DNA of 64,000 nt from Irpex lacteus (taxonomy: Eukaryota > Basidiomycota > Agaricomycetes > Polyporales > Irpicaceae): the NCBI GenBank assembly GCA_001986395.2, contig MQVO02000003.1:496001-560000 (forward strand). The letters are read 5' to 3'. A program made the translations under genes and the position numbers. Below, piece by piece: positions 3,704-55,932 of this stretch; within the stretch, counting starts at the first letter, position 1, and each line of letters opens with the position of its first letter. Under the pieces are notes generated by a model that was given only the letters and a program-made list of their open reading frames with translations, had not been told where the DNA came from and did not search any database.

Positions 3704-4201
3704 GGCCAAAATTTCTGTTGGTAGACGAGTCTCTGGGACATTTTCTTTGTTGTTTTAGATTTATAATGGGAAGCTGTTGTACTGTCTACTATACTTGATA
3801 ATCAACGTCATTCTGTGGTCACCTCTCGATACCCCTGACTGCGTCGTGTGCTCAGGCTGAGTCAATATTCCTGGCTGCATTTTTGTCGCGGAGCCATTTT
3901 CTGGCTGGACTATGAGGTCACTGTGCCAAGACGCCCGGAAGTGGAGGCCGAAGAGCGATAGACGCCTGTAGTAGTTGCATGCACCGAGTGTGTGGGTCCC
4001 ATATTCCACTCAATTTGCAGAGGTCGAGAACTGCCAGCTGGTCCAGCAGCACCGACGCATACACTCTGTACATGTCGCTTTCGACTCTCTCGACGACATC
4101 CATCACGACACCCGACGCCCGACGCGATTCTCGCACGTTGATCGCGCTCTAATCTCCTTCAGATCTCCCGCCTGGTCTCTCCGTCTGCCAGGAGCCTTGC
4201 G
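3704..4201. other. Intergenic: SEC59 3' end and kinase 5' leader
   Basis: About 500 bases between the SEC59 stop and the kinase ATG. Pyrimidine-rich sequence with TCTCTCCG and CATCC runs before the ATG looks like a fungal 5' leader. No convincing RNA gene or extra exon is seen. Confidence 0.4.
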
Positions 4202-7200: not shown

Positions 7201-10200
7201 CGAACTCTCGACGTCGAGGGCGCCGTCGTCATGGACGTGTCGCATGTGGACGTCGTCGAGAATATCTCAGCCGAGTGTTCGACGTCGATATCCATACATA
7301 GCCACGATCCGCTGGTTGGGACCCACAACAGGTTGTTGAACGCGGATGAGTTCACGAAGCTGTACGACTTCTTTACGAAGCACCCCGATGGGAAGATGTG
7401 TGAGGGTGTGTTGCCCGCGGGGTTGCGACCGTTCCTGCCATCGCAAATTGAGTATGCGCTAGGTCGGTGCTTTGTTTCCTCTTGTGAAGTGTGTATTGAT
7501 TTGCGTGTGAAGCCGTCCCGATCTTCAACATCGACAAACGTCCGTTTGCCATTCTCTGTGCGTATAGCACAGGCGAAAGGACGACGCCATTCGTGAGTTT
7601 ACTCTTTCGCTTCTTTACCCGTGTTCAGATAGTAATTGTGCGTAGCTCGAGGGCCACGAACTCTCGTACTTGAGGGCAATAGGTACGTACCAGGGCTCAC
7701 GTTTTGAAAATCGGGGCTTATAGCCGGACACAGGTGTCATAATCTTATCGGCTGTGCTCAAGAGGCGAATGATTCTCGCAGACAAGGCGAAGAGTCTATT
7801 CATCTCGAAGTGAGTGCCTGATTACCACTACCTGTGGGAGGCGTGCCTGACTATGCTTCCCAGCATTTCGCACGAATTACGAACACCACTGCATGGGGTG
7901 AGTGTCTCGGCGCGGCTCGTCCTTACCTACCATTCATGTATGCATCACAGATACTGGCTTCTGCCGAGTTGTTATCGGACACTAGGCTGGACCATAGCCA
8001 AGCTTCTTTCCTTCAGACTGTACAAGCATGCGGGACCTCTCTTGTTGAGACGGTCAACCACGTGCTTGACTTCACAAAGCTGAGTGGGAACGCGCGAGCT
8101 GGTGGGGTTGAGAATGTCGTACAACACAGTCGGTGAGTGTGCTATAGGTCATTGAATGGGGTTGCAATACTAACATCCCATCATAGTGTCGACTTGATGC
8201 AGCTTCTGGAAGATGCGACAGAGGGCTGTTGGATAGGGCATCGTGCTCGCATGTTCACGTCCGAGATCGGGAGTGTCTATTCACCACCGAAGGCTGACAG
8301 GAACTCTATCTCTACACCACAACCCACGAAGTACGTCGAGACCGTTCTCGATATTGGGCACGTTGATACCGTAAGCGCGTTCCTCTCAGCGAACGAGACG
8401 GCTTTTTTTTTCATTATTGGATGAAATAGGGATGGGTTGTCAAGTGTGAAAAGGGCGGAATACGACGTGTCTTTATGAACCTGTTTGGCAACAGTCTCAA
8501 ATTTACCTCGGTATGGTGATCACCCTGTTCTTGAAATGTCTTACTGAGTGTACCTCCTTAGGATGGCTATGTTCACATCATGCTACGCCAGTTCCCCCTC
8601 ACTCCAGGCAAGGTGAAGATCGAACTATCCGTGATTGACACTGGAAAGGTGAGTTGCAAATTGACTCCCCATAATCTCTTACTGCTTATTCACGCATATC
8701 GTAGGGTATAAGTCAGAACTTTTTGAAGGTGAGTGAGATTCCAACACGCGATAGATCGCATATGATTCGAGCTAAATTGACCTTCACTACAGAACGGTCT
8801 CTTCCACCCATTCTCTCAAGAAAACCCTCTGCAAACTGGTACGGGTCTCGGTTTGGCCATAGTGAACAGCATCGTCAGATCGAGCGGTGTCGATGGCAAA
8901 GTCGACGTATGGAGCGCTGAAGGCCAAGGAACAGAAATCAAGGTCACCTTCAACGCCGAAATAGTCAAGGACGAAGAATTCTCCGCCAACGATGCAGAAT
9001 TGCAGAAGGCATATAACGGGCTGAATCGACCTCTCATCTCGCTTATCGGCTTTGACGACCTTCATAGAGGCACGCAATTACTCCGGACCGTCGTGTGCAA
9101 CTATCTCGTGAATCGTTGGGGTTTTACGTTGGCTCAGGGCTCGCAGAGAGGCGATATCGTCATCCTCAACGATGATATCTCTCCCGTAACCCGAGCCGCA
9201 GAAGAGAAGGATCTTGACCGTGCTTTCATCATCTTGTCAGCTGCACGAGGCGATCCACGATTGATGAACGCCGTCACCGAATACGAGCGACTCGGTGGCT
9301 TCTGTCGTATCGTCTACAAGCCCTTCGGTCCTCAACGTCTTTACTCCACTCTCAAGTTATGCCTTCACGCGCTCAACATCCTGCGATCAAGCCGCCTCCA
9401 GCGTCCCGGTTCCTCAGATGGCCACGCTTCGCCAGTGGGACAAGCCCACTCGGCAGTGGAAGAAGTATCACAGGGGTCGATACTCCCCCGGCGTTATTCG
9501 GAAGATAAAAAGGTTCTGACTTTGAGGCCGCCACTTGGCCCTCGGGCTTTCACGGCTCATCCTTTGTCGAGTTGGTCTAACTTGGGTTCACCATCGGAAC
9601 AGGACGAAAATGAACTGGAGGAGAAGATCGCGCGAGTGGACGAGCAGCCTGTGTTTTCGCAGAGTCCGTCGAGTCCTACGATTGCGATTGGCACGGGTGG
9701 CACGCTTTTGAAGACGTCTGTGGGCACTTTGCAGCCTAAGCGTGCCATTCGGGTCCTTGTGGTTGAGGATAATGCTATCCTTCGTAATCTTCTGTAAGTT
9801 TTGGTCTTGTCATCCCTTATTTCGTTTGCTCATCGTGATATATTTGCAGTGTCAAGTGGCTCAAGAACAAAGTGGGTGGGAGCTAGGCTGCCAATATGAT
9901 CCACAATCTTACGGTTTTGCAGGGCTACGACTTCCGCGAAGCTGTTGATGGGATGGAAGGCGTTCAGACGTTTCAGTCGGAGGGATACTTCGAGTATGTT
10001 GGCCAACGACGAGCTATGTGTCTGATTGTACTCATTGATGTCCAACAGTGTCGTATTGGTGGATCTATCGATGCCTGTGCTTGATGGTAAGCGTTACATT
10101 TAGTTGCGTCGTTTCATTTACTCACGCTACTCTAGGGGTCGGTGCTACTTCGAAGATTCGGGAGTTCGAATCGAATCGAAAACAGCAGCTGTCCCCCAAA

Positions 10201-10416: not shown

Positions 10417-11139
10417 GGATAAACTGCACTCATTCCTCATTCTCCTTTCTACTTGGGATATATATCGGTCCTGACGACCACATGGTAATACCAGTAGCTC
10501 TTATTTTGCATACACACACACCACACACACAACTCACATACTTCGATATCGCACGTACAGACCGTTTTCTATATCGCATACTTTCGTAGCTTTCGTGACT
10601 TACCCACCTGCATTTATACGTCCTATCATTCCTATACGTTTTGTCGATGAATGTTTCCATCACTCGACCATCATTGTAGCTTGCTAGCCTCCTGTATAAC
10701 TCATATTTGGCCGATATAATTGTATATATAGAAAATGGATACCCAATTCCTTGCAATCTTGTGGTGGGAACGACTCAGTGGCAGGCCTAGAACAATGATG
10801 AGTACTTGGCAGTGACCTGTAAACAAGGTTGCGAACGTGACCGTGGCCACGTTCTACCGTGGAGCCATAGAATCTATACAAAGGGAGTCAGGAGGAGGAA
10901 CGTGAACGGGGTCATCCGAATCGGGAAAGGTTCGCGAGCCTGTTTGCTTGTTTGTCACCCAGTTCGGTCTAGGCGCCGTGCCCCATTACAGCGTTCCGCC
11001 TCCACGCTCCCGCCTGCCACTCACCTCATTCCTCCTCCTCAAGATCTCCTTCAACACCGGCGGCCTCAAGAGCCATCTACGCCCTTCATCTCTCAAGGAT
11101 CACTCTCTTCGCAGTCTGCTCGTGCATCTCTGAACAACC
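10417..11139. other. Intergenic with CA microsatellite
   Basis: 723 bases between the kinase stop and MAF1. It holds a short CA-rich repeat (about 10511-10532) and a TATATATA stretch near 10724. The last 150 bases before MAF1 are strongly C-rich, as in many fungal leaders. Open frames here have no recognisable content. Confidence 0.4.
10511..10532. repeat. CA-rich microsatellite
   Basis: A run of alternating AC interrupted by one CC, in the gap downstream of the histidine kinase. It is a simple low-complexity tract. Confidence 0.7.
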
Positions 11140-12183
11140 ATGAAGTTCCTGGAGATCCCTGAACTGGCACGCCTGGCGCAGGCACTCACACACGAAGGCC
11201 CCGAATGCTCAGTGCACACTCGAATAGAGGCATACAGCCTCAAACCGGTCACAAAGGACAAGAAACTCTTCCGTTCGCTCGAGACAAGCTACAAATCCGA
11301 GGTCTCAAACTCACCGCCCCTGCCCTCGTTCATCGCTGCCGACCGAGACGTCGACATGACGCCGTTCGGGCCCATGTCAGAGAAGAGCTCGCGAAAGACC
11401 TTTCATCTGCTCATCGCCACTCTGAACGCTGCGTTCCCCGACCACGAGTTCTCAGAGTCGAGGTACAAGGACTTCAACAGGGAGGAGAACGGCGCCAGCG
11501 TGCTCAACGCTCTCAGCACCACCCTCGTCTCGCCGAACCGTGGCGGCGTCGCTGCACCCCGGACGTACTCAGCCTACCCACCCACCTCGTCTGACTTCTT
11601 CCCATCCTCAGTGCCTACCTCTTCGTCACCTATGGACTTTGCCAAGCCCAGCCCGTACGCACCTACCAAGACCGTCGCCGGGACCCACCCCTTTGTCTAT
11701 CGCGTCCTCAACGACGCCATCGGCCTCGAAGAATGCGAGGTCTACTCTTACGTACCTGATATTGAATACGATCCGCATGCGAGCGACGACGACGTCGCTG
11801 ATGATAATGTCCTGAGCGGCGACGAGGATACGTCTTCTGACGACGAACCGACGACTTTCCAGTTTGACGACTACGACGTGGACGAGGCACCCCGGCGGCC
11901 GCTTTGGCAGAGCACGTCCAGCGACGAGTCGGACGAATACAACCCGCATATAACCATGAAGCGTGGAGGAGGTGCGCTGCTCTGGAGTTCGCACTGGTTC
12001 TTCCTGAACAAGAAGCGAAGGCGGATGTTGTTCATCACTATTTGGGCTCGGTCGAAGAGTATGTCTGCTTGGTTGGACGAAGACGAGAGTATGGCTAGTG
12101 AGGAGGTGACGGAGCGGTTCTTTGGGTGGGATGGTGCGGTCGGCGCTGGCGCGAGAGCGTTGGGGTTGAGTTCCACTGTTTGA
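11140..12183 (+). CDS. MAF1: MAF1, RNA polymerase III repressor
   Basis: Conserved negative regulator of Pol III transcription, acting in the nucleus downstream of TOR and PKA nutrient signals. The 347-residue product has no introns. It begins with the A-box MKFLEIPELARLAQAL. The B and C boxes follow: GPMSEKSSRKTFHLLIATLN with AFPDHEFSES (about 78-110), and FVYRVLNDAIGLEECEVYSY (about 187-206). A long acidic stretch (DDDVADDNVLSGDEDTSSDD) and a conserved hydrophobic end (LLWSSHWFFLNKKRRR) come next. The Ser/Pro-rich linker between A and B/C parts is typical of fungal forms and a likely phosphorylation region. Sequence just downstream of the stop has a donor and acceptor pair, so a 3' UTR intron is possible. 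Confidence 0.96.
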   Translation: MKFLEIPELARLAQALTHEGPECSVHTRIEAYSLKPVTKDKKLFRSLETSYKSEVSNSPPLPSFIAADRDVDMTPFGPMSEKSSRKTFHLLIATLNAAFPDHEFSESRYKDFNREENGASVLNALSTTLVSPNRGGVAAPRTYSAYPPTSSDFFPSSVPTSSSPMDFAKPSPYAPTKTVAGTHPFVYRVLNDAIGLEECEVYSYVPDIEYDPHASDDDVADDNVLSGDEDTSSDDEPTTFQFDDYDVDEAPRRPLWQSTSSDESDEYNPHITMKRGGGALLWSSHWFFLNKKRRRMLFITIWARSKSMSAWLDEDESMASEEVTERFFGWDGAVGAGARALGLSSTV

Positions 12184-19287: not shown

Positions 19288-20698
19288 TTACTCCGCCGAT
19301 TTCGGCTTCTTTTTCTGCAAAGGAAAGTTAACATCAATAAGGATGTGCTGTTTTTCATTGAAAGCAGAGTCTAGACACGTACATATGCGACCGCGTCAAA
19401 GTCGTATTTGATACCGGCCTCCTCCAGCTTACGCTTTTTCTGCGCCTGACGCTTGATCAGCCGCTTTTCGGCCTTCTCCTGCTGCTCTTCCGTCCGTTCC
19501 TATAGTTTCAAAAGCGTTAGATAAGGGCGAGATAGGCTTTGGACCATGTACCAACCTTGTTATGCTTAACCCGGGCGACACGAGCGTTAGGTATTGCCCG
19601 CCACTTCCTGTTGGCACCGACCCACAACTCTGGGTGGACCTCATCCTTGGGGATCACTTTGCACGTAAGGATGTGCCCCATGAGAAGGTAGTTGTCCATC
19701 GTCTCCGCGACGATCTGGGCTACGGAGGAAGAGTCAAATTCGATAAAAGCGTAGTGCTTTGAGCGGCCGGTCTATAGGGTGGTCATTTAGAGTAAGTTCG
19801 CGAGAGAGGGATGAGTTATCGTACCTTCTTGTTACGAGATAATCGTAGACGCGTCACGTCTCCGAACTGCGAGAAATACGCTTTCATTTGTGTCTCGTAG
19901 AAACCGTGGGGTATCCGGCCTAGGTAGATAACACCTCGGTCTGCGGTCTACCAAGATGACGTTAGTGCAAGGACACGGTACAAGCAATAGCACACATACC
20001 GGCTTCTTCTTCGCTTTCTCGAGTTTCTGCTTCACAATGGCATTGTCCTTGGCTATCGTGGGGAGTTTCGTGACTTCAATGGGATCGGGGTCCGCGTTCA
20101 TTTCATCGTCAGAGGAGTCGGCATCGTCTGTCGAGAACCCGAATAAATGAGCCTCTTCTTCGTCAGACCCGTCCTCCTTCTCCTCAGCAGACTGCTTCTC
20201 CTCATCCTCATCCTCTTCAACAGGGGAAGCCGCCTTCTTGGGAGATCGAGTTTTCGGTGCAGCTGCTTTTTGTGGTTTGTCGGCAGACTTTCCTGACTTC
20301 TTCGGCTTCGAGCTCTGCGCCTCTGCCTCTGAATCCTCAGCATCACTCTCCTCTACCATAACTTCTTTCCCCTTCTTCGCCTGTGACTTGCTCGCCTTAG
20401 ACCCCTTCTTTATGTCTGCCGTTGCCTTCTCTGCCTGCGTCGCATTTTCGTCGTCCTCAACTGCGGGCTTAGAAGCCTTCTTCGACTTCTTCGCAGGAGA
20501 GGGGACCTCTTCCGTAGATACGACGGCCGCGCTTTTGCGCTTTCCTTCCGCCTTTTTACTTGGAGCTGGCGCTTCTTCCGCCGTTGTGGCTTTCACTTTT
20601 TGCACCTTTTGCAACAGCGACTTCGACGCTGGTGCCTTCGGCTTTACAGAACTGATAAGTTTAGCCTTTGTGGGTTTCTCCGTCGTTGCCTTGGCCAT
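19288..20698 (-). CDS. NOP15: Nop15/NIFK-like nucleolar RRM protein
   Basis: Ribosome biogenesis factor of the pre-60S particle, binding near ITS2. The long N-terminus (first exon, about 19990-20698) is Lys/Ala-rich with alternating basic and acidic blocks, as in disordered nucleolar proteins. The single RRM follows with [14 protein letters not shown] (RNP2 region), [29 protein letters not shown] (RNP1) and [19 protein letters not shown]. These words match the Nop15/MKI67-interacting family. The tail [17 protein letters not shown] is basic and helical, ending KKKPKSAE and TAA at 19288. Four introns. The start at 20698 is the first ATG of the long frame. The gene is divergent from CDC16 with 229 bases between start codons. 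Confidence 0.88.
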
Positions 20699-20927
20699 GG
20701 TTAGATGAGATGGTATGGTATGAAGTAAGAAATACGAGTAACACAGGACACAGGCTCGCCGCGTCCAAAATTTCTGTTAGGCGCACGGCGTTGTGGCGTC
20801 GCCCAATTTGGGCATAACTTGTTTGGCAAGAGCTTTTGATCCAAACAACGCCTGGCGTGACTGGCCACAGCGTGTTAGGACCTCCATCATTGCCTGCTCG
20901 TCGCCTGCATAGTTTTTCTCTAAAATC

Positions 20928-27783: not shown

Positions 27784-29467
27784 TCATAGCTCGTCCTTGG
27801 CCGGGTGGTCATGCCCGTGGAAAGCCTCTGCCAGTTCTGCGAAGCATGGTCAGACAAGAGTCGAATAGCAACATCAAACGGACCACTCACTTCTCTTCAC
27901 CGTTGGTGAGAGTGTCTGCGGGAGGACAACATTGTACTCTACGTACAGGTCGCCATAACGGGACTCTCCATAAACTGGCATACCCTCCTCTTCTATCACC
28001 TGGACGTAACCTACAGAGACGGACTTCAATATTATGAATCGAACAGACGGAAGGAAATCTTTAGACCTGGTTGTGTCACGCCGTTACGCTTTAGATGAAC
28101 AATATGACCATCCAAGTGCGTCAAGTTTCTTTCAAAGCCCAATAGTGCCTGGAGTAGTGCATTAGTATCATCAAGCCAACCATGAATACCAGACGTACCT
28201 CATCAACACCAATAGTCTCCTTCCAATACAACCCAGTCTCCTTCCTTCTCCACCCGCCAGTCTCCTTCCTACTCTTCACACGCAACACGATATCACCAGC
28301 CTCCCAATCCGGACTCTCATCCGCCTCGCCCTCATACACGACCTCCTGGCCCTCCGGCATCCCCTTCGGAATCTCCAAAGTGTACTGCTGCGTATGCGAG
28401 ATGGTCTTGTGGCCTTTACAATGCGGGCAGACTTTCTTGATCACTTTGCCGCGTCCGCCACAGTCGGGACAAGTGACCTGCGCTTGGGAGAACATGCCGG
28501 GGAAGATTTGTTGACGGACGATCTTGACGCCTTGGCCGTTGCAGCTTGGGCATGTGTGGATGTCGTTTGAGGAGGCGGCGCCTGTGCCGCGACAGTGGTC
28601 ACATAATATACGCTTTTGAACCATGAACTGGAGCGAGAGCAGTGGTCAGAATTATGAACGTGTGGAGGATTCTGTATGCCGTACCTCTATGCTTCCGCCA
28701 GTGTACCTACAGAAATTCATATTAGAGAAGGCGATCCCGCGAGTACCATAGCAACTCACATGTCTGCAAGGCTGACTTCCATCTCGCTCACGCTTGTAGG
28801 TCCTCGTCGCACTTGCTGACCAGGATGTCCTGGGGGGTAGTAAGGCACATCATCAGTATGTATATAGCAGTATGAGGCTTAGAACATACCACCGTGACCG
28901 AAGAAGTTTTGGAAGATGTCGAAGGGGTTCTGGTGCGGGTTCTGGCCTCCTTCATGAGCCTTCAGTCCATCCTATACGATAGTTAGTAAGAGCGGTAAGA
29001 ATGCAGTATACTGTATATACCTCTCCATATCTGTCATAGATTTGCCTTTTCTAGAATTGAAGCATTTGTTGAGTTGTAGGGTATGGGTATAGATACGTAG
29101 TGACGTACCGTCTCGTCCGAAAGGACCTCATACGCATGTGCAATCTCTACAAACTTCTCCTCTGCCCCCTCTTCCTTGTTCTTGTCAGGATGATATCTAC
29201 GAGCTCACGTTCAGTATTATGACACCACGCGAAACAGCATAAATGTCTCACTTCCGGCTTAGTCTCTTGTACGCAGCTCGAATGTCCTTCTCCGAGGCTG
29301 AGCGGTCGACTGGGATGAGGGAGCAATGTCAGTGAACGACTGCATAAGACAACACCGCGCGCGCCTTTATACTAACGATCAAGGGCCTTGTACAGGTCGG
29401 CTGCGTTCACCAGAACAGACAGCAGCAGTAGCGTGCCGAGCAGCAGGAGGACCGCCGCGGGAGCCAT
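27784..29467 (-). CDS. SCJ1: ER-lumenal DnaJ/Hsp40 (Scj1-like), KDEL tail
   Basis: Co-chaperone of the ER Hsp70 BiP, helping folding and degradation of secretory proteins. Start at 29467: [20 protein letters not shown] forms a signal peptide. The J domain follows with the HPD motif in [12 protein letters not shown], then a short Gly-rich part with FFGHGGHPGQ. The zinc finger has four repeats: [24 protein letters not shown] and CPHCKGHK. The C-terminal substrate domain has [20 protein letters not shown]. The protein ends HDHPAKDEL then TGA at 27784; KDEL is the ER retrieval signal, so the lumenal location is read straight from the sequence. About eight short introns. Confidence 0.93.
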
Positions 29468-29834
29468 GAGGGTGATAGGCGGTGTGTTGCCTGACCAGAC
29501 GTTGATGTGTTTGAAGGAGTGTTGCCTTGACTGGGGGAGACTTAAGAGGGCCGCGCAAGAGGAATATGCTGAACAAAGTGGGTGCTCTGGGTGGCTGAGC
29601 TTGGAGGAGAAGGAGGCGTCTGGAGTCAGTAAATTATGGCTGCCGAATCGGGTACGCCACGTAGTATGAGTCCACGTGGCAAAGTACTTATCACCATCAA
29701 TGTTGATCTACCGGAATGTCGGCGACATTCAACCTGAGTGGCAGGCCACCACGACTTGGACTTCGCTAGTGTGGCGACGACGACGACGACATACATCGAC
29801 TTGTTCTTTTGTACGCGCATGACTTACTGATAGG
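29468..29834. promoter_or_regulatory. Upstream region of tandem paralogue 1
   Basis: Divergent promoter between the DnaJ gene and paralogue 1. It holds CACGTG at 29673-29678 and CATCAA at 29695-29700, an arrangement repeated before paralogues 2 and 3. An E-box-like CACGTG is a bHLH site in fungi; its use here is inferred. Confidence 0.5.
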
Positions 29835-31391
29835 ATGCTACAGAAAGTGGCTACTCGCAGCCATGAGCTCCTTGGGCACCAGGCACACCTCAGGCTTGCG
29901 AAGCGGTTCAAGTCGTCTTCCGCCAGGTCGCCGCGGTACCATCCGAAAGTGAGAGGTTGGCGATTTACTGCTTGAGTACTTGCATAACTGTAGCTGATAT
30001 GTATGTTTACTCAGCCTTACCCTTTGCGCTCTCCCCACAAGAGGCCGTCGAAAAGATTGTACTACCCAAGCATATCAAGTATATGATCATGTACAACAAC
30101 CTCTATTACAATTATCACCTCAGACAACCTTGGACAATAGACTGGAAAACTCCCGTGACTTTTACTCACAAGGAGATTACGCCGATATATCTGCCAAGTT
30201 GGTTCGTTGACCTGGACATTGCGCTGACGCCAATCTTCGGACCTGGCAACTCTTCGTCCGAAACGATCTTGACCCAAGCGTGTGTCTATGTGTTTCTACT
30301 CGAAGCACATCAACTAACTGATACTACTACGTAGATTCTTTCCAGGTACGTTCGTAGTCGGTGTTTTTCAGGTGTAATACAAACATATCCACAGGGCATG
30401 ACAAGGATCCGCTGTACCGCATGCCACTAAGAAGTGTAGAAACGCCTGAGTTACTATCTCAGGCCGTGCCATTCTCCAGCGATATGTCCAAGCAACACGG
30501 CGTTGATATCGTCTGCATGTCATATTCCTCGTCCCCATTACTCATACGTGATGCGGCGAGGGACATGATGAGAGCACAAATCCACAGATGTGTGGTATGT
30601 GCTTTACTATGCTCTACTGTGCTTCGTTGATTGATGTATCACAGTTGGCTGCCTACCCAGTCTTAATTCCTGTGTACCTCGTAAAGTATCTGTTTAATAC
30701 GTTGGTTGGCCCTATAGAGACCTTCGCGCTAGTGGAAGCCGCCTCCCGTGAGGTGAAGTGCGGTTCCTGTGATCAAAATATCCTCACTCATTTGACCACC
30801 ACAGGGAGGGACGGTCTATTTCAAGCACATAAGCGACGACATCTATGACAAGCACGCCCAGATGAAGTTAGGCGGAGCCGTTGAACGAATCTATCGACGA
30901 AGATATCTAAATCGCTATGAGTTTGAAGTGACCCCGCGGGATGGCAACCGGTTCATAGGGCCTTCGCAAGTGCACACCGGCACACAGTTCATGCGCAAAC
31001 TCGACGCTCTACTGTCGTCTACGTCTAAGGACAACCCACTAGTCATCTACAAGCAGTATGAGAAAGTTCATCGGAAGAATTCACCAATCAATTTCGACGA
31101 TGCTCGAATACGGCCATGGATCGCGAAGGAGCTCAAAGATATGAGGTTATATCTATGGGCAAGAACAGCTGTGCTGAAACTCCCCGTGAGCTATTTGTAG
31201 TGTACGCTATGATTACCCAAGCTGAATGAGTCTTTTTTAATAAACAGATGCAAGCCGATATCGAGAAGGGACGGCTCGAGAACCCGCAGGAGGAAAGTGA
31301 TGATCCAATGGATATAGTAAAACCGGACTGGCTGTTACAGTGGGAGAAACAGGAAATTGCTCGCCGTAATAAGAATAAGTCGAAGAAATAG
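29835..31391 (+). CDS. Tandem paralogue 1, unknown basidiomycete family
   Basis: Function unknown; I know of no named domain. The start MLQKVATRSHELLGHQAHL and following KRFKSSSARSPRYHPKVR are Arg/Lys/Ser-rich without acids until the mature part, like a mitochondrial presequence. Family words follow: LPFALSPQEAVEKI, ITPIYLPSWFVDLD, an 11-base microexon coding FFP, GHDKDPLYRMPLRS, SQAVPFSSDMSKQHGVDI, LAAYPVLIPVYLVKY, ETFALVEAASREV, INFDDARIRPWIAKE and WLLQWEKQE near the end. Seven exons read cleanly; the last exon begins MQADIEKGR. The stop is TAG at 31389-31391. Paralogues 2 and 3 follow on the same strand with the same exon plan. This copy is intact. Confidence 0.82.
30335..30345 (+). other. 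11-base microexon of paralogue 1
   Basis: ATTCTTTCCAG lies between a TAG acceptor and a GTACGT donor. It joins CAAGC to GGCATGAC in phase, giving QAFFPGHD. Equivalent microexons occur at 32322-32332 and 34248-34258. Confidence 0.8.
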
Positions 31392-31810
31392 CGAAAAGCC
31401 GCTGAGTAGCCACCTTACATCTATACCACGGAGGTAGCGTACGCTTCACGTAGGATAAATCTAAGTACGATCTGTGTCGCTTGTCGAGCAACCATCTATC
31501 ATATTCGATACGACGTCAAAGTGTCCCCTCACTTCCAGCAGTACCTTATAGAACACTGAGATATCCCTATGACTCTTGAGTGGTATTTTGTGTTGCAGGC
31601 TCAATAGTAAGTAAGTACTGCAACCGTGGCCTCAGGCTCTTGACTCCGCTTGCAGCCCACGTGGTGATCGCCATCAATATTAATACTGCCGTTTAGGGCA
31701 GGACTCCCGGAACACCCGTCATCCGCGACTTAACTATCTTCTGACCAACTCGGACAACTCTAGAATGTCACGCGAATCTGACTATTAGCGACGTGTCTGC
31801 TGTGACAAGT
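31392..31810. promoter_or_regulatory. Upstream region of tandem paralogue 2
   Basis: 419 bases between paralogues 1 and 2. CACGTG at 31658-31663 is followed by GATCGCCATCAA, with CATCAA at 31672-31677, about 150 bases before the ATG. No gene is seen. Confidence 0.5.
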
Positions 31811-33388
31811 ATGTTGCGAAGAGGCGGGGTTCGACAGCGTTGGCGGGTGGCCGGCGTGACGTGTAACTCGTGCGGCTCGGAGCGGTCTGTATCAACCTCA
31901 GGCTGGACTCAGTCGCTGAGTTACCATCCTAAAGTCAAAGGTCACTTATTATATTTGCATTGGAACTGAGACAGCTCTGAATACTGTGCATCACTAGCTC
32001 TCCCCTTTGTGCTGTCACCTCAAGAGGCCATCTCAAGGATAAAACCTCCGAAATATTTCGGCCCATTGGTCAAATTCCACAACCTCAGGCAAATGTGGAA
32101 TGCGCTTGTTGGCCGACCCAGGAAGGAAAGCTGGACGAAACCAGAATATTTTGCTCCTAAGGAGGTTACAGCAATATACCTACCAAGTTGGTTCGTCGAC
32201 TGCAGGATGTCATTCTCAGATCGCCCCGAGGACTCCGGCATCCCTCCCATCACTGCAATACAAGCGTAAGCCCAAGTTTTTTCGCTCAATACGTGCCCGT
32301 GCAGCTAACGTTGCGGTACAGTTTTCTACCAGGCACGTCTCTGAGTGGCTCAGGCTGTATATCTACTGCACGCTCTAATACTTTCCGTATCAGGGCACAC
32401 GGTAGACCCGTTATGTCGTTTGTCCATGAGGAAGATATGGAGTCGTGAACTCATGTCACAGGCGAAACCATTTTCAAATGATATGACCAGGCAGCATGAT
32501 ATGGACGTTTCGTGCTTGCCATATACTTTGACCCCTTTCGCCTTCGACGGAGCAGCAAAAAATCTGGCAAAGCTGCCAGTAAAAGATTATGTCGTATGTG
32601 TTGTATCCTCCGTCAGGTTTTGCTCTCAACGATGCCCATACTACTGGTCAAGGTCGCAGCTTACCCTGTCTTGGTACCTGTATACCTCGCTAAATACTCC
32701 ACCTACCTTGGGGACGACATCATAGAGACATTCGCTGTGATAGAGGCTGCACATAAGGAGGTCAGCAGTACATACTCGTATTTTACAGAGCACTCACCCA
32801 AGTTTATCAGACTAAAGCGGTGTATGTCAGGAATATCCACGAGCGGCTTACACAACTGCTCGTACAACAATACCCGCTTGTCCATCAATACCTGCAGAAA
32901 AATCCCAAGGTCCTCGCCTTATCCGAGTTTGATGTGAAGCCGTGGGACGCTTCTGAATTTATCTTCCCCCCGAAAGCAGACGGTCCTCTACGTGCATTGT
33001 ACATCCACATAAACCGCATGCTCTCTGTGTCTCAAAAAACAGGCCCTTCGGAAATATGCGGAATACGAAAGCAAAAGTCGCTCCGGAGCAAATATCGATT
33101 TCAGCGATCAGAGGATAAGACCGTGGACCGAAAATGAAACAATACCGATGGGCGGCTACTTGCTTGCAAGGATGGCGTCCTCCGTCCTCGTAAGTGATCT
33201 GGTATATCCAAAGTTTGCCTGCAGCTGATCCGGCTTGATAGAGCAACATGTCGGACGTCGATAGTGTCGAGTTGCTAAGGCAGTCAAAGGAAAACGAGGC
33301 GAGGCGGAAGCCGCAATGGTTATTGCAATGGGAGAAACAAAACGTGCCTATTCAATTCCAGACTGTCGAACGAACGAAGAAGCCCTAG
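31811..33388 (+). pseudogene. Tandem paralogue 2, apparent frameshift
   Basis: Same unknown family and exon plan as its neighbours. It starts MLRRGGVRQRWRVAGVTC, another basic presequence-like N-terminus, and joins to SYHPKVK and ALPFVLSPQEAISRI. Conserved words include VTAIYLPSWFVDC, an 11-base microexon coding FLP, GHTVDPLCRLSMR, VAAYPVLVPVYLAKY and ETFAVIEAAHKEV. The microexon is followed by a GC donor. In the last large exon the frame runs through FDVKPWDAS to HINRMLSVS. Past an A6 run at 33034-33039 the family sequence (YAEYESKSRSGANIDFSD, IRPWTENE) continues in another frame. No intron of usual size repairs this. Either a recent pseudogene or a one-base sequencing error. The final exons keep coding potential to TAG at 33386-33388. 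Confidence 0.7.
32322..32332 (+). other. 11-base microexon of paralogue 2 (GC donor)
   Basis: TTTTCTACCAG follows a GTACAG acceptor and is followed by GCACGT, so the next intron would be GC-AG. Using the GT four bases later would break the frame of GHTVDPLC. Confidence 0.7.
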
Positions 33389-33731
33389 CTTCGCTGCACG
33401 GCTTCGGGTGCTGGATATCTAATCACATGTACTAGTACAATAACTCAGGATGTCTATGATCATTACTTGTACGGGATGTATCCTTTCAAGTTGTACGTCT
33501 GTCGAGCCTCTGCTGAGTATCGACTGAACATCAAGTTGAAGCTTGAAGCTTGAAGCTTGAAGTGAATTGACTAGGCTCAGCCGCTGGCGCCATGCGATTG
33601 GGACCCACGTGCGATCGGCATCAAAGTCGTTAGAATTACCCACTGCTCTTTTGGGTAGACCTGGATCTGGACACTCATCATCAACTGTACTGCTTACTCT
33701 CCACCTCAACGGCGTATCGGTGGTGGTAGAT
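33389..33731. promoter_or_regulatory. Upstream region of tandem paralogue 3
   Basis: Contains CACGTG at 33606-33611 and GATCGGCATCAA ending at 33624, about 125 bases before the ATG. A short tandem repeat of TTGAAGC lies at 33535-33564. Confidence 0.5.
33535..33564. repeat. Short TTGAAGC tandem repeat
   Basis: The 7-base unit TTGAAGC is present three times in a row plus a partial fourth copy. It lies in the gap between paralogues 2 and 3 and is likely a simple slippage repeat. Confidence 0.85.
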
Positions 33732-35319
33732 ATGCTGCAAATGACGATGATACGAGGTCATAGACCACTGGCTCTCAGCATGCGCCTATCTATTGGGAGG
33801 CGGGTCATGTCCTCTGCCACGCAACCGTCGCTTTACCACCCTAAAGTCAGAGGTCAAACGGCCCACTTTCCCTTTTCACACTAGCTGACATAACATATGT
33901 TTAGCACTACCCTTTGCTTTGTCGCCCCAGGAGGCTACAGCAAATATCAACCCCCCTCCAGCGTTAGGCCCACTGATCTCGTTCAACAATTTATGGGTGA
34001 ACCTCTTCGAGAATCGTCCAATGAAGATAGACTGGACCCAACCCCTAGAATTCGTTCCGAAGGAGGTGACAGCCATATACTTGCCGAGTTGGTTTGTCGA
34101 CACCAATGCGTCACTTCACAACAAAATCGCCGTCTCTCCTGACCAGACGGCTGCCCTCCAAGTCGTTATACCCCAAGCGTATGTCACAGTTCCAAATGTC
34201 TACCCTGTTCTTATAATGGACGCTCATATGGCTGATATGACTTGTAGTTTCTGTCCAGGTACAGGCTGCACGACAAGCCTATTCTTTTCACTCTAACACT
34301 ATTGTTGCCAGGTCACACCATGGACCCATTGTGCTATATGTCTATGCGAAGTATACTGGAACGCGACCTAATGCCGCAAGCTGTCCCATTCTCTCAAGAT
34401 ATGCGCAAGCAGCACAACGTCGACGTAGTATGCATGCCGTACAGCCTAACGCCGTTATCGCTCGTACAGGCCTTTATCGAGTACACGGACAACAAATTTC
34501 GTCCTTCAAATTATATGGTATGTCCCGGCTCTCCGCGTTGAACAGTTCGCATAATATGTTTATATTTGAAACATTCTAGATGGCGGCATACCCCGTCCTT
34601 GTTCCGGTTTACTTGGCTAAATATGCGATTCCCTTCCCATTCGGCACTTTGGAGACATTCGCGGTCATAGAGGCTGCGTCTAAGGAGGTGAAGTGTACTC
34701 TTATTTGACAGCAAACTATGCTCACACAGTGAAATCTCAGGGCGGAGCCGTCTTTATGAAAAACGTTGTTCACGAGTTTAACCAGCTATTCCAGATGGAG
34801 GACGTGCAGTGGGCCAAGGAGCTTGCGGATAACTATCCCGAATTCGACGTGAGGCCTCCGAGCGCGCTGAATTTCCTCGAAGTATACGAAGACCACCCGC
34901 AGAGGTTGATAGAGGGGTTAGGCACCAAATTCAGCACTCAAACTTTCGATGTTTTGAGGAGGCTTTGGACTCGTTACGCGGATTTTGAGAAGAGTCGCCG
35001 GTCAGGTAATCAACTCGACTTTGACGATCTAAGAATCCGGGAATGGACACAGGAGGAGACAAAAAAGGTTCAAGATCATATGTCTGCCAGAGCACTGCTA
35101 CAAACCATCTTGGTGAGCCTTCCTTATGTGAATCAACGCCAACCTCTATGACACGTACTCAACCACTTCGATCTGTAGAAAATGGACTTTTTGATGCCTG
35201 GAGGAGTAGAGAAAGGAGCGATCGAAAAGATACACGCTGCAGTAGAGGAAACGAAGCCTGCCTGGCTAAAGCAATGGGAGCAGCAGCAGGCATCGACGAA
35301 TCAGACTACGGGTTCATAG
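33732..35319 (+). CDS. Tandem paralogue 3, unknown basidiomycete family
   Basis: Third intact-looking member. Start MLQMTMIRGHRPLALSM with SIGRRVMSSATQPSLYHP is again Arg/Ser-rich and suggests mitochondrial import. It then shows ALPFALSPQEATANI, VTAIYLPSWFVDTN, the 11-base microexon (34248-34258, FCP), GHTMDPLCYMSMRS, PFSQDMRKQHNVDVVC, MAAYPVLVPVYLAKY, ETFAVIEAASKEV, QLDFDDLRIREWTQEE and, in the last exon, AWLKQWEQQQ. The stop is TAG at 35317-35319. The region between TRYADF and REWTQ is in one frame here, which is what exposes the frameshift in paralogue 2. An alternative start at the internal MRLSIGRR is possible. Confidence 0.82.
34248..34258 (+). other. 11-base microexon of paralogue 3
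   Basis: TTTCTGTCCAG between CTTGTAG and GTACAG, coding FCP across its joins, at the same place as in the two sister genes. Confidence 0.8.
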
Positions 35320-35507
35320 ACAAGGTGTTGCCATGTGCCGGATAATATAGATAGCACTCTGTTGCGTATTGCGGGCCTCAGCCTAATTTTCTCTGCTGTG
35401 ACCGAGTACAGAAATCCTGTTCATATATTGAGCTCGAGCCTGAGACGAGCGCGCCTGCACGTAATACGCGCTTGATCAGAACACGGTGACACTCTGCTCA
35501 CACCTCC

Positions 35508-36563
35508 ATGAACTACCTAACCTCGCGAATACGAGACTACATTTCTTCAAAGGCACAGAGCGTACTGCTAACTGTGCTAGCTGCAGGCCCAGTACCACAA
35601 CATGTCGCGTTCATCATGGACGGCAACCGACGTTACGCCCGTTCACATCACAAACAGGTGGCTCAAGGGCACGGTGACGGGTTTGAGGCATTGAAACGGG
35701 TGCGTAGTGTAGCATATTCGCTTCTATGATTATGGGGGCGCTGAACTGTGGACTAGATATTGGAGATGTGTATGAAGCTGGACGTGCGTTGTGTCTCTGC
35801 GTATGCGTTCGCTATTGAGAACTTCAAGCGGTCGGAAGAGGAGGTGAACGCTTTGATGAAGCTGGCCGAGGAGAAGCTGGTGCAAATGGCCCAACACGGG
35901 TATGTTCCTCTTCACACCTATGAAAAGCGTTTGGCCTGATAGCTCCGACTGGCCAGCGACCTCTTGGATCAGTATGGAATACGCTTAAACGTGGTCGGGA
36001 AGAAGGAACTGCTACCTCCTGCCGTGCAAGAAGCAGTCAAGAAGGCAGAGGAAATGACACGACATAATAACAAGTGCGTATGATACTCTCGTGTTCTATG
36101 GATCTAATGAGCACATCTGCAGAGCTATACTCAACTTGTGCATGTCGTATGCCAGCCAAGATGACATTACTACGGCAGTTGAGGCTACAGTCCGCGAGTC
36201 ATTACGGGATGGTAACGAAAAGTGAGTGCACATTATGTTAGTTCAACGAAAGGCTTATTGATCTTGCCACAGAGTATTGACTGAGGAAGACGTCGATGCA
36301 CATATCATGACTTCCGTGGTGGATAGCCCGCCAGTTGACATTCTCGTACGAACAAGTGGTGTCAAACGTTTGAGCGACTTTTTTACGTGGCAGGTCAGTC
36401 CATACATGCGCTATGCTTGGTTGCTCCACAAGTCTCATCGCGAATTTGATAGTGTTGCGAAAATACGCAAATCCAGTTCACTAGCTGTTACTGGCCTGAT
36501 TTCGGCCTCTGGGACCTTCTTCCTATTATCTTGGATTATCAGCGGAAGGTATGGGGCTTCTGA
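35508..36563 (+). CDS. RER2: cis-Prenyltransferase (dehydrodolichyl diphosphate synthase)
   Basis: Adds isopentenyl units in cis to farnesyl diphosphate to make the dolichol chain, at the ER or lipid droplets. Start MNYLTSRIRDYISSKAQS leads to HVAFIMDGNRRYARSH, with the catalytic Asp of region I and the Arg pair. Further conserved words are VSAYAFAIENFKRSEEEV (region III), LNLCMSYASQDDI and VDILVRTSGVKRLSDFF followed by TWQ (region V). The end reads SCYWPDFGLWDLL then VWGF and TGA at 36563. About six short introns. The residue after RTSG is Val where many homologues have Glu. RER2 or SRT1 cannot be told apart here; this is the catalytic subunit type, not the NUS1 type. Confidence 0.9.
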
Positions 36564-38584: not shown

Positions 38585-39690
38585 ATGGTTGCGATAAACA
38601 CGATCGACATACATCCGCCTTTGCTAAATTCATCGTGTGCGTGGGCCTCGGACTGGGACCAGCTCCGTGAGCTGTACGATAGCCCGTATACGGGGGCTAT
38701 CACGACTCGTACAGCAACTCTGAATGGCTTTGGTCAGGATGAGACTCATACAGTAAGTTCGCTCGTCCAGTGAAACAAGGTGGCGGAATTGACCTCAAAT
38801 ATTGGCTTCTACAGGTAGCATTCTCTGGCTCTTCAATAACTTCACTCAACTCTTATGGATACTCGCCACATCCTTTACGATCCTACATCAAATGGGTATA
38901 CGATCTATTAACCAATCCAACCCCATCTGGAGCCTGGCCAACGAAGCCAGTCCTAATCAGCATAACTTCATCCTCTTCCACCGTCCTTCAAGAGATGGTA
39001 GTAGAGATCGAAGAGCTCAGGAGCAGACTACACCAATTCCACCTCGGCCACACACGACCAGCCGTTGGGATCCTCAACCCCGCGACGCTCGTGGCGATCG
39101 AGCTCAACACATCCTGCCCGAACATCAAAGACTTCCCTCCACCGGCGTACAACTTTTCGTTCCTCGTCCCCTTCCTGGACGTTCTCGCCTCTGCGTACTA
39201 CTCAGATCCATCGCTGACCATCGGGCTCAAACTCCCGCCATACCTTTATTCGACGCGTTTTCAGGACGCTGTTCGTCGTTTGGCGACGTATTCCAGGCCG
39301 AAGCCAGAGTCGGATGGTACCGATACTATCAACCCGTTCGCATTTGTGACGTGCACGAATACGCTTGGGTCCTGCCTGCTTTTCGCTGATGAAACAAATA
39401 ACGAAGCCGCAGAAACGAATGAGTTCGCGCTACCGACCGCTTTGGGAGGGCTGGGAGGAGAGGCTTTGCATCCCCTCGCACTGGGTAATGTGTACTCGTT
39501 CTCCAAGATATTCGCTGAGCACGAAGACCCGGCTATACGACGAATCAAGGTTATTGGCGTTGGAGGCGTGACGACTCCGGAGGCTCGTCAGAGAATGGTC
39601 CGAGCGGGAGCTTCGGCAGTGGCGTGTGCGACGTTGTTGGGCCAACGAGGCGTCAAGGCTTTCGAGCTGTTGAGTGAAGGGCAAAAATAG
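38585..39690 (+). CDS. Dihydroorotate dehydrogenase, class-1A-like
   Basis: FMN enzyme oxidising dihydroorotate to orotate. It begins MVAINTIDIHPPLLNSSCAW, then YTGAITTRTATLNGF, one intron, and LNSYGYSPHPLRSYI. The active-site loop reads ELNTSCPNIKDFPPPAY: the Cys of NxSCPN marks class 1A, while class 2 enzymes have Ser there. FMN-site words follow: TIGLKLPPYL, LGGLGGEALHPLALGNV, IKVIGVGGVTTPEARQRM and AGASAVACATLLG. About 350 residues with no N-terminal membrane or mitochondrial extension, so a soluble cytosolic enzyme is expected. The ATG follows a short leader; TAG ends at 39690. Confidence 0.88.
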
Positions 39691-45284: not shown

Positions 45285-47072
45285 CTACTGGTCGATCAAC
45301 TTGACAAAGGATTCGAGAAGGACCTTCGGCTTGAGCATAATCTGACGTAAAAGCCCTCGCTGCGTCGGGTCGCCAAGGCTGCTCGTTCTACTGATAGCCT
45401 GAGGCGTATCCAGCGACGAGCGAGAAACTTCCCCTCTCGAGTCTTGCTCAGAAGGTCTCCTCTCGTTCGTTCTACGAGTCTGCTCGTCCACGGACGTAGT
45501 CGCGAGGCCAAGCTCCAACGTACACAACACACGGTCGTATGCGTTGTCGGAATGTTTCGGCATGAGACTCTGTAGTACGTTCTCCATCGTCGCTGGATCG
45601 AACCGGGATACATCGCTCTGTACCTCGATGCGCAGACCGGATTTATCTGAACGCCTGCTCGTGGCGGCCTCTACTTGCGCTCCCGCCGCTGGTACGACGG
45701 TTACCTCGAGGAACTGGCTCATGAAAGCTTCTCGTAGAGAAGTGGCGATCTTCAACGCATCTTCGCATAGCATGCGTAATTTGGGTTTGAGCGAGTTGAT
45801 CTCGGTGAGGTGACTTGGGGGATAGCCGGCCAGAGTGAGCAGGGCATGGACACCAGCAAGGCTTCGGTCTACGTGCAGCTGTATATGACTTTCTCTAGGA
45901 TCGGTCGTAGGGTATTCAGAGGTGGGGGTGACGGGAGTGGGTAGAACACCAGCGGGGAGAGTAGGCTGGTTCTTCAGGTAAGAATGTGTCAACGCGATCC
46001 ATCGAGCAGTGGTAGCTACAGGCTCTACGGTACAGGAAACATGAGTGAGGACGGGACACTTGTACACATCTATGACTAGGTGCGCACCTTGCAAGTGCAT
46101 CTGCTTAAAGACCGCTTTCATCCCGTAGTTCACTTCGTCGGACGCCCCGAAACAGAACGTGTCCAGAATCACGTAGGAACACCACACCTCCCAGGCCTGT
46201 AACGCGTACTGCAGCAAGATGGGGTCTCCGACATGATTTCGGTTTATCAACAACTCGACCATCTTCCCTCCCACAGCCTGCTCAACGGTGTCAAGGTCCT
46301 CGGGAGCGACGACCTGATCTACTGTCTGCCTCCTCCTGGACCCAGGCCTAATGTGGAGGTCTGCATGGTACGTCTCCGCGACAGTTGCGGCGAACTGCTG
46401 AATCTCTCCATTTAGGTCCTGTACAATCTGGCGGATGGTCGCGTTGTCGAAGGTGTCCGTCTTGCTCAGGAACGAGCGTAAGGATGACAGCTCTGCAGCG
46501 TACTCGTCGATAGTCCTACTCGTGGACTCGTGTTCTTTCCGGAGCTTGTAGTACTTGTCCTTGTAATACTCCGAAGAAGAATTCGAGCTTGGGGATACTG
46601 CAGTAGTTGGGGACACTGGAGGAGATGCTACGGACGGCGAGGACACGCTGGTGGTCAACGTAAGTCGCGCACGCTCATTGGCTTGGACGGCCTCGAGCTG
46701 TTTCTGTAACTGAGCAATCTGCTCTCGCAACCTCCCGTTCTCATCGTACAGCTTCCCGTTGTCCTCCTTCGCTCTCCGGTACTTCACTTCATAGTCATCG
46801 TAACTCGCCTTCGACCTGTGGCCATGACCCTCCGACTCCGACTCCCGCCTCGATATCCTACTCGAAGACGACTTGTAGTCTCTGTCCCTGTCCGACTTGT
46901 AGTAGGCAGGTGTGTCGGTTCCCGAGGAGGGCGCGGGGCCCAGCGTGCGTTGGTGTGAATGCGCTATTCTGTTAGCCGAAGCGTGTCGCGAGGCCTCTAT
47001 ATCGTAAATGTCGTCAGATAGTCGTATAGTGGGAAGAAACCAGTCGAGGATGGTTGTCCAGAATGAGCTCAT
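45285..47072 (-). CDS. 595-residue coiled-coil protein, unknown function
   Basis: Intronless and unrecognised. It begins MSSFWTTILDWFLPTIRLS. A Ser/Arg-rich charged stretch and a heptad-like coiled coil follow (about residues 95-135, ending AQLQKQLEAVQAN). A Ser/Pro-rich linker precedes a second coiled segment (DKYYKLRKEHESTSRTI). The C-terminal 380 residues are mostly helical and look globular, with CSYVILDTFCFGASDEVNYG, ARWIALTHSYLKNQ and a conserved-looking LRMLCEDALKIATSLREAF. The last helix ends KVLLESFVKLIDQ. The lack of introns in an intron-dense window is notable but not proof of retroposition. Start chosen as the first ATG of the frame. Confidence 0.8.
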   Translation of the reverse strand: MSSFWTTILDWFLPTIRLSDDIYDIEASRHASANRIAHSHQRTLGPAPSSGTDTPAYYKSDRDRDYKSSSSRISRRESESEGHGHRSKASYDDYEVKYRRAKEDNGKLYDENGRLREQIAQLQKQLEAVQANERARLTLTTSVSSPSVASPPVSPTTAVSPSSNSSSEYYKDKYYKLRKEHESTSRTIDEYAAELSSLRSFLSKTDTFDNATIRQIVQDLNGEIQQFAATVAETYHADLHIRPGSRRRQTVDQVVAPEDLDTVEQAVGGKMVELLINRNHVGDPILLQYALQAWEVWCSYVILDTFCFGASDEVNYGMKAVFKQMHLQGAHLVIDVYKCPVLTHVSCTVEPVATTARWIALTHSYLKNQPTLPAGVLPTPVTPTSEYPTTDPRESHIQLHVDRSLAGVHALLTLAGYPPSHLTEINSLKPKLRMLCEDALKIATSLREAFMSQFLEVTVVPAAGAQVEAATSRRSDKSGLRIEVQSDVSRFDPATMENVLQSLMPKHSDNAYDRVLCTLELGLATTSVDEQTRRTNERRPSEQDSRGEVSRSSLDTPQAISRTSSLGDPTQRGLLRQIMLKPKVLLESFVKLIDQ

Positions 47073-47368
47073 CGAGCGGTGGTTGGGCGTGATTATATGG
47101 CAACGGCACCCATGCGCGAGTGCATGAGATGAAACAGGGCAATATTGTTGTCACCGGGGACTGCTATCGCGACAATCAGCGCGGTTTCCGTCGAGATAAA
47201 GCTCGAGATAGATGGGGTATAGGGCAGAGGAATGAAAGGATAGACAGCAGCTGCCTCGCGGTGAAGGCGTGTTGCTGGCAACAACTTCCCCACCCCAGCT
47301 CACCGAAATTAGTCCACTTGGCGCTCACTCGTTCTTGAGAATATATCGCTCTCATCGTGAAGTCATGT

Positions 47369-54405: not shown

Positions 54406-55932
54406 TTAGCTCGGGATCCGCTTGGGCTGAGGCAGCGGGGACTCGGACGTACCTCCTATGTCCTCCAAAGTATTGAAGTCAACCTCGTTCACTTGGTCAT
54501 TTCCATTGTAGAGGAGAACGATGCGACCGTCGAGATTGGCCAATGCCGCTCGTCGTGCTTCCACGAAACGGGCGAGTCCGCGACGGTTCGGGAAATGCAG
54601 CTGTAATCTCTCGAAACTTCTCTGGTCGGCACATATTTCTGCTATATTGTCCCAGGCGTAGGCTGTTATATCCTGGTCCTCGGCAGATAGTTCCTGTTCA
54701 AAAGAATAGCTTATAATGCTGACGCAGATAAGAGCGATGCAGTCGACACCCCTCGTAATGTCCATCGTAGACTTGGAGGCAAAGAGCCCGAAAAGCACGT
54801 CCGGCTTTGTATCACCATGTTCCGTGGCAGACCAAGTGCATATATGAATGAAATCTTCATAGAGCATTAGAAACTTCTACAGCACGGAGGTGAACATAGA
54901 AGGGTACTCACTGTCATATTCTTTATAGACCACTGGTCGTACGTGATGTGAGGAAATCCTGAGTTGTGTTACCCCGCTATTTTGGCACAGGCACATGCCG
55001 ATATGAAGTATGGCGCGCTGAGCTGATAAATGGAGTTGCGGAAGTATGGACGCGTGTATTATCGCAGTGCGGGAAAAGGGCAGCATGTCGCGCATACAAA
55101 TAGAGTACGTCAGCCAGGCCACTTCCACGCTGCACAGGTAGTTGCTTCGAGGCAGAGTGGACCCGTCTAATCTTCGCTGGCTCAGGATCTCGTCTTTGAT
55201 GTGCAGGGGGCTTTCGACTGAAGTAGAGATGCTGTATGGGGCGATTTCTAGTACGTCCCTGAAAAGCATATTATCCTGGAAAGATGGCTGAGCGATCCAC
55301 GTGATGTTGGAAAATAGAATGTGTGTCATGCCACTACTAGTGATGCGTTTTTCATTGGAGAACTTGCGCAGGAGTGAGATGAGATCGTGAGGAGTTCGGA
55401 AATGGGGGTTAATGATATGAACACTCTCAGGACGAATCATGGGAAGGGTTCTAGGGATACCGTAACAGAGGCGACGATGAGTTGGCTGTTGTGAGCGTAT
55501 GTGGACGTCAGGGGAGTCTAAGATTTGAAAGTGAATGAAGGTGTGGGGCTTGAACGGAAATAGGGATGGCTGTAACTGAGAAAGATAGAGCCACGGACGA
55601 TCCCCTATGCGCTGCACCAACGTCGCACTCCGAATGTATTCTGAGACGGGTAATAAATTACTCGGCACATTCGCCACAAGGGATGAGAATCGGCGGAGGT
55701 CTTCATAGTCTTTGATCCATAAGGTCTGGAAGAGATTCGCACGGCAGATTTTGGCCCAACGGACACAGGTTAGGGAGCTGGCTGCGACATCCTTGACGGC
55801 CTCTTTCCGATTCGGCAGCTCTCTGCCATATTCATCGGACCCCAGGTCAAGCAGCCGGTCAGCATACTCGCAGACGTAGTAGAGTATAATGTCGAATAAC
55901 TCGGGCGGAATGTCTGCTGCAGTAGCTGACAT
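54406..55932 (-). CDS. F-box-type protein of unknown target
   Basis: Start at 55932: MSATAADIPPELFDIILYYV and SLTCVRWAKICRANLFQTLW form an N-terminal F-box-like motif, which binds Skp1 in SCF ubiquitin ligases. The body (about 55000-55750) is a long irregular repeat-like region with RRFSSLVANVPSNLLPVSEY, VHIINPHFRTPHDLISLLRK and TQLRISSHHV. One intron near 54880-54960 joins to KFLMLYEDFIHICTW and the tail with AEICADQRSFERLQLHFP, ending PQPKRIPS. The exact donor was not settled: two donors keep phase (about 54925 or 54943). Such proteins are greatly expanded in mushrooms and diverge fast, so the substrate cannot be told. Confidence 0.75.

Follow-up and report, generated by a model that had tools for sequence, protein, structure and literature searches.

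In Bacillus subtilis, deletion of either ydjG or ydjH abolishes the membrane recruitment of the SPFH protein YdjI and of PspA, and two-hybrid tests pointed to YdjH as the direct anchor (PMC8581546). An NTF2-like fold has been ascribed to the YdjG domain (PMC11237479), and the SPFH proteins of fungi include the inner-membrane prohibitins and the stomatin-like Slp2 (PMC8624314). Here we describe three neighbouring genes (genes 1 to 3) of the basidiomycete Irpex lacteus, located in a stretch of 64,000 nucleotides (nt) of contig MQVO02000003.1 (positions 496,001 to 560,000, forward strand; hereafter the window), whose predicted products probably contain a core related to that of bacterial YdjG-type proteins. 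The reading we favour, to which we assign a probability of about 0.5, is that these genes represent a tandem expansion, within the Irpex clade, of imported mitochondrial adaptors that would act with their YdjG-related core at an inner-membrane scaffold.

The original prediction, made from the window alone, of a tandem triplication of plus-strand genes with common intron positions was confirmed by splicing models built at conserved GT/GC-AG junctions, down to the exact ends of the array (29835 and 35319; Table 1). Each gene comprises seven exons of matching lengths (121, 265, 11, 200, 108, 381 and 144 nt in gene 1, with intron phases 1, 2, 1, 0, 0 and 0; 121, 274, 11, 206, 108, 372 and 141 nt in gene 3), the six intron positions are common to all three genes, and gene 2 agrees with the other two as far as a frame break in its exon 6. 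Protein identity among the copies is 36-45% over 306-392 aligned residues, so their likeness is not due to chance. Intron 3 of gene 2 (32333-32393) has a GC-AG junction, the other two copies having a GT donor at this place. The I. rosettiformis protein model P0003 lacks the stretch around the 11-nt microexon, indicating that gene callers may overlook it. The five words by which the family had been described were found in all three genes (LSPQEA; YLPSWFVD; PFS[SNQ]DM; YPVL[IV]PVYL[VA]KY; ETFA..EAA..E), except for the final V of the last one, an artefact which in these models corresponds to a read-through intron donor (GTG in genes 1 and 3, GTC in gene 2).

Protein searches, which retrieved relatives sharing exact 5-residue words and scored part of the candidates, yielded at least 39 distinct homologous proteins, none of them with a precomputed Pfam domain. 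Among the matches listed, the sources were Irpex, Phlebia, Laetiporus, Fomitopsis and Daedalea, which we take to be Polyporales, Mycena, Roridomyces, Favolaschia, Hypsizygus, Collybia and Crucibulum (presumably Agaricales), and Suillus and Rhizopogon (presumably Boletales); all the names listed were hypothetical, uncharacterized or unnamed. The blocks PKVRAxPF, YxPxWxxD, QxGxxVxCxP, AAYPVLxPxY, DxRxR and PxW are conserved in the family. Gene 3 and the Irpex lacteus protein BC629DRAFT_1536692 were 98% identical along 81% of the gene 3 product. When the 44.3-Mb genome was queried with gene 3, I. rosettiformis P0003, Laetiporus P0004, the metagenome protein P0014 and one gene 1 exon, the matches among the best candidates scored fell only inside these three genes, and no fourth copy was found. 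A tree was built from 24 of the 42 sequences collected, and in it the Irpex proteins formed one clade (100/100). Within this clade, I. rosettiformis 955180 grouped with gene 3 (91/92) and 955176 with gene 1 (94/90), both branches being below the starred level. As genes 1 and 3 each have their own I. rosettiformis partner, duplication most likely came before the two species diverged, and the expansion would therefore belong to the Irpex clade. The proposal of a lineage-local family expansion was thus not borne out as worded, the family being present across Agaricomycetes, the duplications most likely antedating the divergence from I. rosettiformis and one copy being frame-broken.

The N-termini were surveyed by composition and hydrophobic moment in 26 of the 42 sequences, after dropping 16 without a usable N-terminus. 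All 26 were net positive with 0-2 acidic residues, and in 23 of them no more than 1.4% of the same-length segments of the own protein were equally basic (the exceptions being P0003, P0028 and gene 2). The mitochondrial-signal-like N-terminus initially described was therefore upheld by composition, Arg/Ser-rich and acid-poor in the three copies and also in other fungi; amphipathicity was distinctive in just 7 of the 26. These basic, acid-poor N-termini favour, short of proof, import of the family proteins into mitochondria, which we consider likely.

No known domain had been recognised in the family, and the libraries agreed: Pfam gave no match for genes 1 and 3 at E <= 10 (best stray over 10 and 19 members, E 0.022), NCBIfam gave none for the same genes (best stray among 19 members, E 0.018), and a sequence search of the PDB returned no credible match (best E 0.067). 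The family probably does have relatives, as by profile comparison its core resembles a bacterial SPFH-linked domain. AlphaFold2 models of the fungal proteins were confident (pLDDT 76 and 85), and their Z against the NTF2-like superfamily was far below the meaningful level.

The motif order of the fungal proteins resembles that of bacterial zinc-ribbon proteins, and the pattern YLPYWT[FY]DA was used to retrieve these; over genome contigs it gave at least 118 stretches and 117 family frames. In an alignment of 33 of these frames, the core was preceded by two zinc ribbons at the N-terminus and followed by a hydrophobic stretch at the C-terminus, and eight cysteines were invariant. By analogy, based on architecture and gene order rather than on the sequence of YdjG, we regard this set as YdjG-type. 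Its members, annotated as 'TFIIB-type zinc ribbon-containing', 'zinc ribbon domain-containing' or hypothetical, have in common the motif order PF..S..A - YxPxW..DA - LLPvW..Y, and the fungal proteins have a counterpart core, PF..S..EA ... YxPxW..DA ... VLxPxYLxxY, with profile-profile P values between 1e-4 and 1e-9 depending on the alignment or part compared; at these motifs, long strands with hairpin partners are predicted in the fungal models. The bacterial core had no Pfam match in the five bacterial proteins tested.

Comparison of fungal and bacterial alignments with hhalign gave P values of 7.2e-6 and 3.2e-6; once realigned, the match comprised 174 colinear columns. The first halves matched each other at P 3.3e-7 and 1.3e-9 and the second halves at 8.3e-4 and 9.4e-3, compared with 0.13 and 0.18 for fungal first versus bacterial second halves. 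Because the retrieval pattern itself favours the YLPYW anchor, this motif was masked in control comparisons. For the canonical (pattern-retrieved) set, the best of 300 column shuffles reached 38.9 versus the 42.4 observed unmasked, and 28.2 versus 28.6 masked; the best of 50 decoy clusters of open reading frames (real genes plus antisense frames) scored 23.0, below 42.4, below the masked 28.6 and below the 57.1 of the paralogue set presented below. A hidden Markov model (HMM) search of 2877 frames, 117 of which belong to the family, had family frames in 19 of the top 20 ranks, and in 22 of the top 50 with the anchor masked. In turn, the bacterial HMM was run on a mixture of sequences (31 fungal, 157 from the window and 620 shuffled), and 19 of the 20 top ones were fungal. 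The best of 128 bacterial sequences was an Enterococcus plasmid protein that had been found by a bacterial query (25.6 bits, E 4e-8, both motifs in order); the other three plasmid proteins obtained 11.6, 8.6 and, for Paracoccus, 2.3 bits. These comparisons indicate that the fungal core is likely homologous to the YdjG-type core. None of the 42 fungal sequences had two CxxC, and thus the two zinc ribbons are absent, the one CxxC observed being in the N-terminus of gene 2. A C-terminal membrane segment is likewise absent from the fungal proteins, which have no strongly hydrophobic segment (best 19-residue hydropathy 1.14-1.81 in nine proteins, versus more than 2.5 in 12 of 13 bacterial ones). 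They also differ from YdjG-type proteins in their presequence-like N-terminus and in an additional helical part at the C-terminus. With zinc ribbons, membrane segment and a linked SPFH gene all wanting, the fungal family would have a related core without being a YdjG.

The top frame outside the pattern-retrieved set was the neighbour of a canonical gene in an Anaerolineales contig (words PVFWPMWLVDAEVAG), of which it is a true paralogue (27% identity, E 4e-25). Matches at E <= 1e-8 were present in 46 of 298 genomes of the same class, and 27 of the best 30 paralogues had a second family frame alongside. The fungal alignment matched these best 30 at P 9.1e-7 (probability 91; 195 columns realigned, 54 of them in the scored local match), and the best of 150 shuffles scored 26.7 versus 57.1. 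It was the first half of the paralogue (4116-4958 in locus L033; L151-L179) that matched the fungal first half at 1.3e-9, as exemplified by the pair formed by L178 (RLQRLYLPMWLVDSDVQATW) and Laetiporus P0004 (RIQAIYLPIWLVDAEVEAQIW). Unlike the fungal proteins, the paralogue retains one zinc-ribbon-like CxxC...CxxC and C-terminal hydrophobic stretches; two paralogues tested had no Pfam match. In the presumed Anaerolineae loci (L033, L151-L179 and L180-L191) the canonical gene often lies beside the divergent one-zinc-ribbon paralogue, the pair occurring in 11 of 12 contexts.

An SPFH HMM match was found in 74 of the 117 bacterial loci; the gene was on the same strand and upstream in 70, with a median gap of 16 nt, and one such neighbour matched Pfam Band_7_1 at E 3.4e-45. 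Among annotated plasmid regions, the SPFH gene was next upstream in the four viewed (of 12 records), and in Enterococcus a TPM gene followed downstream. Band_7 genes are present in the I. lacteus genome, in which Band_7_1 had no match at E <= 0.001.

On these grounds we propose that the family, Agaricomycete-wide, nucleus-encoded and of about 45 kDa, would lose its N-terminus on import and function in mitochondria. More speculatively, the fungal protein would act as an adaptor at a prohibitin or stomatin-like SPFH scaffold of the inner membrane, or at an assembly of similar kind; it would no longer span the membrane and might dock through its core and C-terminal helical part. This adaptor role is drawn by analogy with YdjG, which B. 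subtilis requires for the membrane recruitment of an SPFH protein and of PspA; none of the fungal results ties the family to SPFH directly, and an SPFH partner is speculative. A nameless fungal family would thereby gain a fold (by prediction), a probable compartment and a class of partners as candidates. If the proposal is true, a bacterial envelope-stress operon would be linked to fungal mitochondrial membrane scaffolds and the YdjG core, itself little understood, would gain eukaryotic relatives.

It should be considered that several results weigh against this reading. The retrieval pattern was chosen for its likeness to YLPSWFVD, and masking this motif, which carries much of the signal, raised P to 0.005; the best masked match then fell on the second motif, at its proper position. 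When the alignments were enlarged to 31 fungal sequences and to 94 of the 117 bacterial ones, the unmasked match weakened to P 1.3e-4 (6.1e-5 without gappy columns), a reversed profile giving 0.14. The Anaerolineae gene came to notice through its match to the fungal profile, and with its anchor masked the paralogue score fell to 22.9, inside the decoy range (best decoy 23.0). Colinearity is blurred by the match of the fungal second half to the paralogues' first half (P 3.4e-5), the other three crossed pairs being weak (0.026-0.18); this crossed match could hint at an internal repeat, for which direct half-versus-half tests within each set were weak (0.039-0.26). As to the context, 43 of the 117 canonical loci lacked an SPFH match (flanks were sometimes incomplete), the SPFH HMM matched in none of the 12 Anaerolineae contexts, and there is no SPFH linkage in the fungus, the Band_7 matches being on contigs C262, C58 and C163 and the window on C296. 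The hydrophobic moment of the N-terminus was distinctive (<=5% of control segments) in 7 of 26 proteins and, among the window genes, in gene 1 only.

A stronger version, in which a soluble descendant of the YdjG core still works with an SPFH scaffold in mushroom mitochondria, as a bacterial membrane-stress module retained or captured and then multiplied in Irpex, seems unlikely to us; the sole alphaproteobacterial protein tested was the 2.3-bit one, so descent from the mitochondrial ancestor is unsupported. Similarly doubtful is a fungal-only mitochondrial protein whose beta-hairpins would resemble the YdjG core by convergence, with another role such as ribosome or respiratory-complex assembly. 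The weak masked comparisons, profile matches that are pairwise with none at database level, models lacking a clear fold counterpart in the PDB and a C-terminal helical half devoid of a bacterial counterpart in the alignments would all fit it, yet two distinct blocks keep their order in the alignment, cognate halves outscore fungal first versus bacterial second halves, and the best matches, the Enterococcus protein and the Anaerolineales paralogue, were not fetched by the anchor pattern. A different, and in our view rather improbable, interpretation places the core in the Hsp70/J-protein sphere, as a domain for client binding or assembly that would aid folding or assembly of imported proteins, with J-fused relatives elsewhere in eukaryotes. 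It arises from the sole match at E <= 0.001 of Foldseek in the viral library (BFVD), Yasminevirus A0A5K0UBJ7 (E 3.1e-5, probability 0.99), which is named 'DnaJ-like subfamily C member 3'; this name is database-derived, the superposition is poor (TM-score 0.30, root-mean-square deviation 23, 512 columns), so that at most parts agree, and the fungal proteins that were scanned showed no J domain. The Yasminevirus match raises the possibility that the core occurs fused to J domains in other eukaryotes.

Finally, the copies might be duplicates that are decaying under relaxed constraint and have no strong role today, which we regard as very unlikely. The broken frame of gene 2 speaks for decay, as do the long stem branch and the 36-45% identity between copies, signs of fast evolution, and the fact that, with gene 3 as the query, a different I. 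lacteus record gave a close match to gene 3 alone. Against it, that match is 98% identical, genes 1 and 3 have separate I. rosettiformis partners (on the branches below the starred level given above), an upstream module is retained in all three copies, and second codon positions are better kept between copies (identity 0.58-0.64) than the saturated third ones (0.36-0.39), the pattern expected under purifying selection. Gene 2 is open to about position 33042, with a single break at an A-run near 33034-33045, downstream of which the conserved residues resume in another register and continue to the gene end. The Irpex lacteus F17 genome paper (PMC5596461) describes PacBio RSII and Illumina data and, the break being at an A-run, a sequencing error is possible; the break may be such an error or mark a pseudogene.

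The upstream module pairs CCACGTG with a second element. CCACGTG was not enriched window-wide (7 matches at five sites versus 9.3 expected), and three of the five sites stand 127-163 bases upstream of the three start codons. Each of these three is followed by ATCRSCATCAA, found 3 times in the window versus 0.19 expected, a count that none of 100 shuffles attained; this pattern was drawn up after the sites were seen, so its enrichment serves as a guide only. A promoter element common to the copies makes their co-regulation possible. A minus-strand gene at 28121-29470, with exons encoding a J domain and a CxxCxGxG zinc domain (presumably a J-domain chaperone), starts near 29470 and heads away from gene 1, whose CCACGTG module lies between both starts.

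Table 1. Coordinates of the three genes and of their features (positions in the window).
Feature	Position	Strand	Details
Gene 1	29835..31391	+	exons 29835-29955, 30015-30279, 30335-30345, 30395-30594, 30645-30752, 30805-31185, 31248-31391; 409 amino acids (aa), no internal stop
Gene 2	31811..33390	+	exons 31811-31940, 31998-32265, 32322-32332, 32394-32593, 32653-32760, 32811-33189, 33242-33390; one frame break in exon 6
Gene 3	33732..35319	+	exons 33732-33852, 33905-34178, 34248-34258, 34312-34517, 34580-34687, 34741-35112, 35179-35319; 410 aa, no internal stop
Presequence-like N-terminus, gene 1	29835..29936	+	34 aa, 8 basic, 1 acidic, net +7
Presequence-like N-terminus, gene 2	31811..31921	+	37 aa, 6 basic, 1 acidic, net +5
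Presequence-like N-terminus, gene 3	33732..33833	+	34 aa, 5 basic, 0 acidic, net +5
First core half (exon 2), gene 1	30015..30279	+	PFALSPQEA ... YLPSWFVD; aligned via family profile to bacterial PF..S..A ... YLPYWTFDA block
First core half (exon 2), gene 2	31998..32265	+	
First core half (exon 2), gene 3	33905..34178	+	
11-nt microexon, gene 1	30335..30345	+	residues kept in I. rosettiformis and I. lacteus protein models P0002, P0001
11-nt microexon, gene 2	32322..32332	+	next intron with GC donor
11-nt microexon, gene 3	34248..34258	+	
Second core strand pair (exon 5), gene 1	30645..30752	+	AAYPVLIPVYLVKY ... ETFALVEAA
Second core strand pair (exon 5), gene 2	32653..32760	+	
Second core strand pair (exon 5), gene 3	34580..34687	+	
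Upstream module, gene 1	29672..29700	+	CCACGTGG and ATCACCATCAA
Upstream module, gene 2	31657..31677	+	CCACGTGG and ATCGCCATCAA
Upstream module, gene 3	33605..33624	+	CCACGTG and ATCGGCATCAA

Elsewhere in the window, 7 of the 13 frames of at least 240 residues were scanned against Pfam. Four stop-to-stop frames, 4706-6280, 45285-47150, 54877-55962 and 19832-20776 (524, 621, 361 and 314 residues, respectively), had no match at E <= 0.01, and the open frames with Pfam matches were 11134-12183 (Maf1), 8781-9797 (HATPase_c) and 38743-39690 (dihydroorotate dehydrogenase). Downstream of gene 3, plus-strand exons at 35490-36410 contain the word AFIMDGNRR and belong to what we take to be a cis-prenyltransferase gene.

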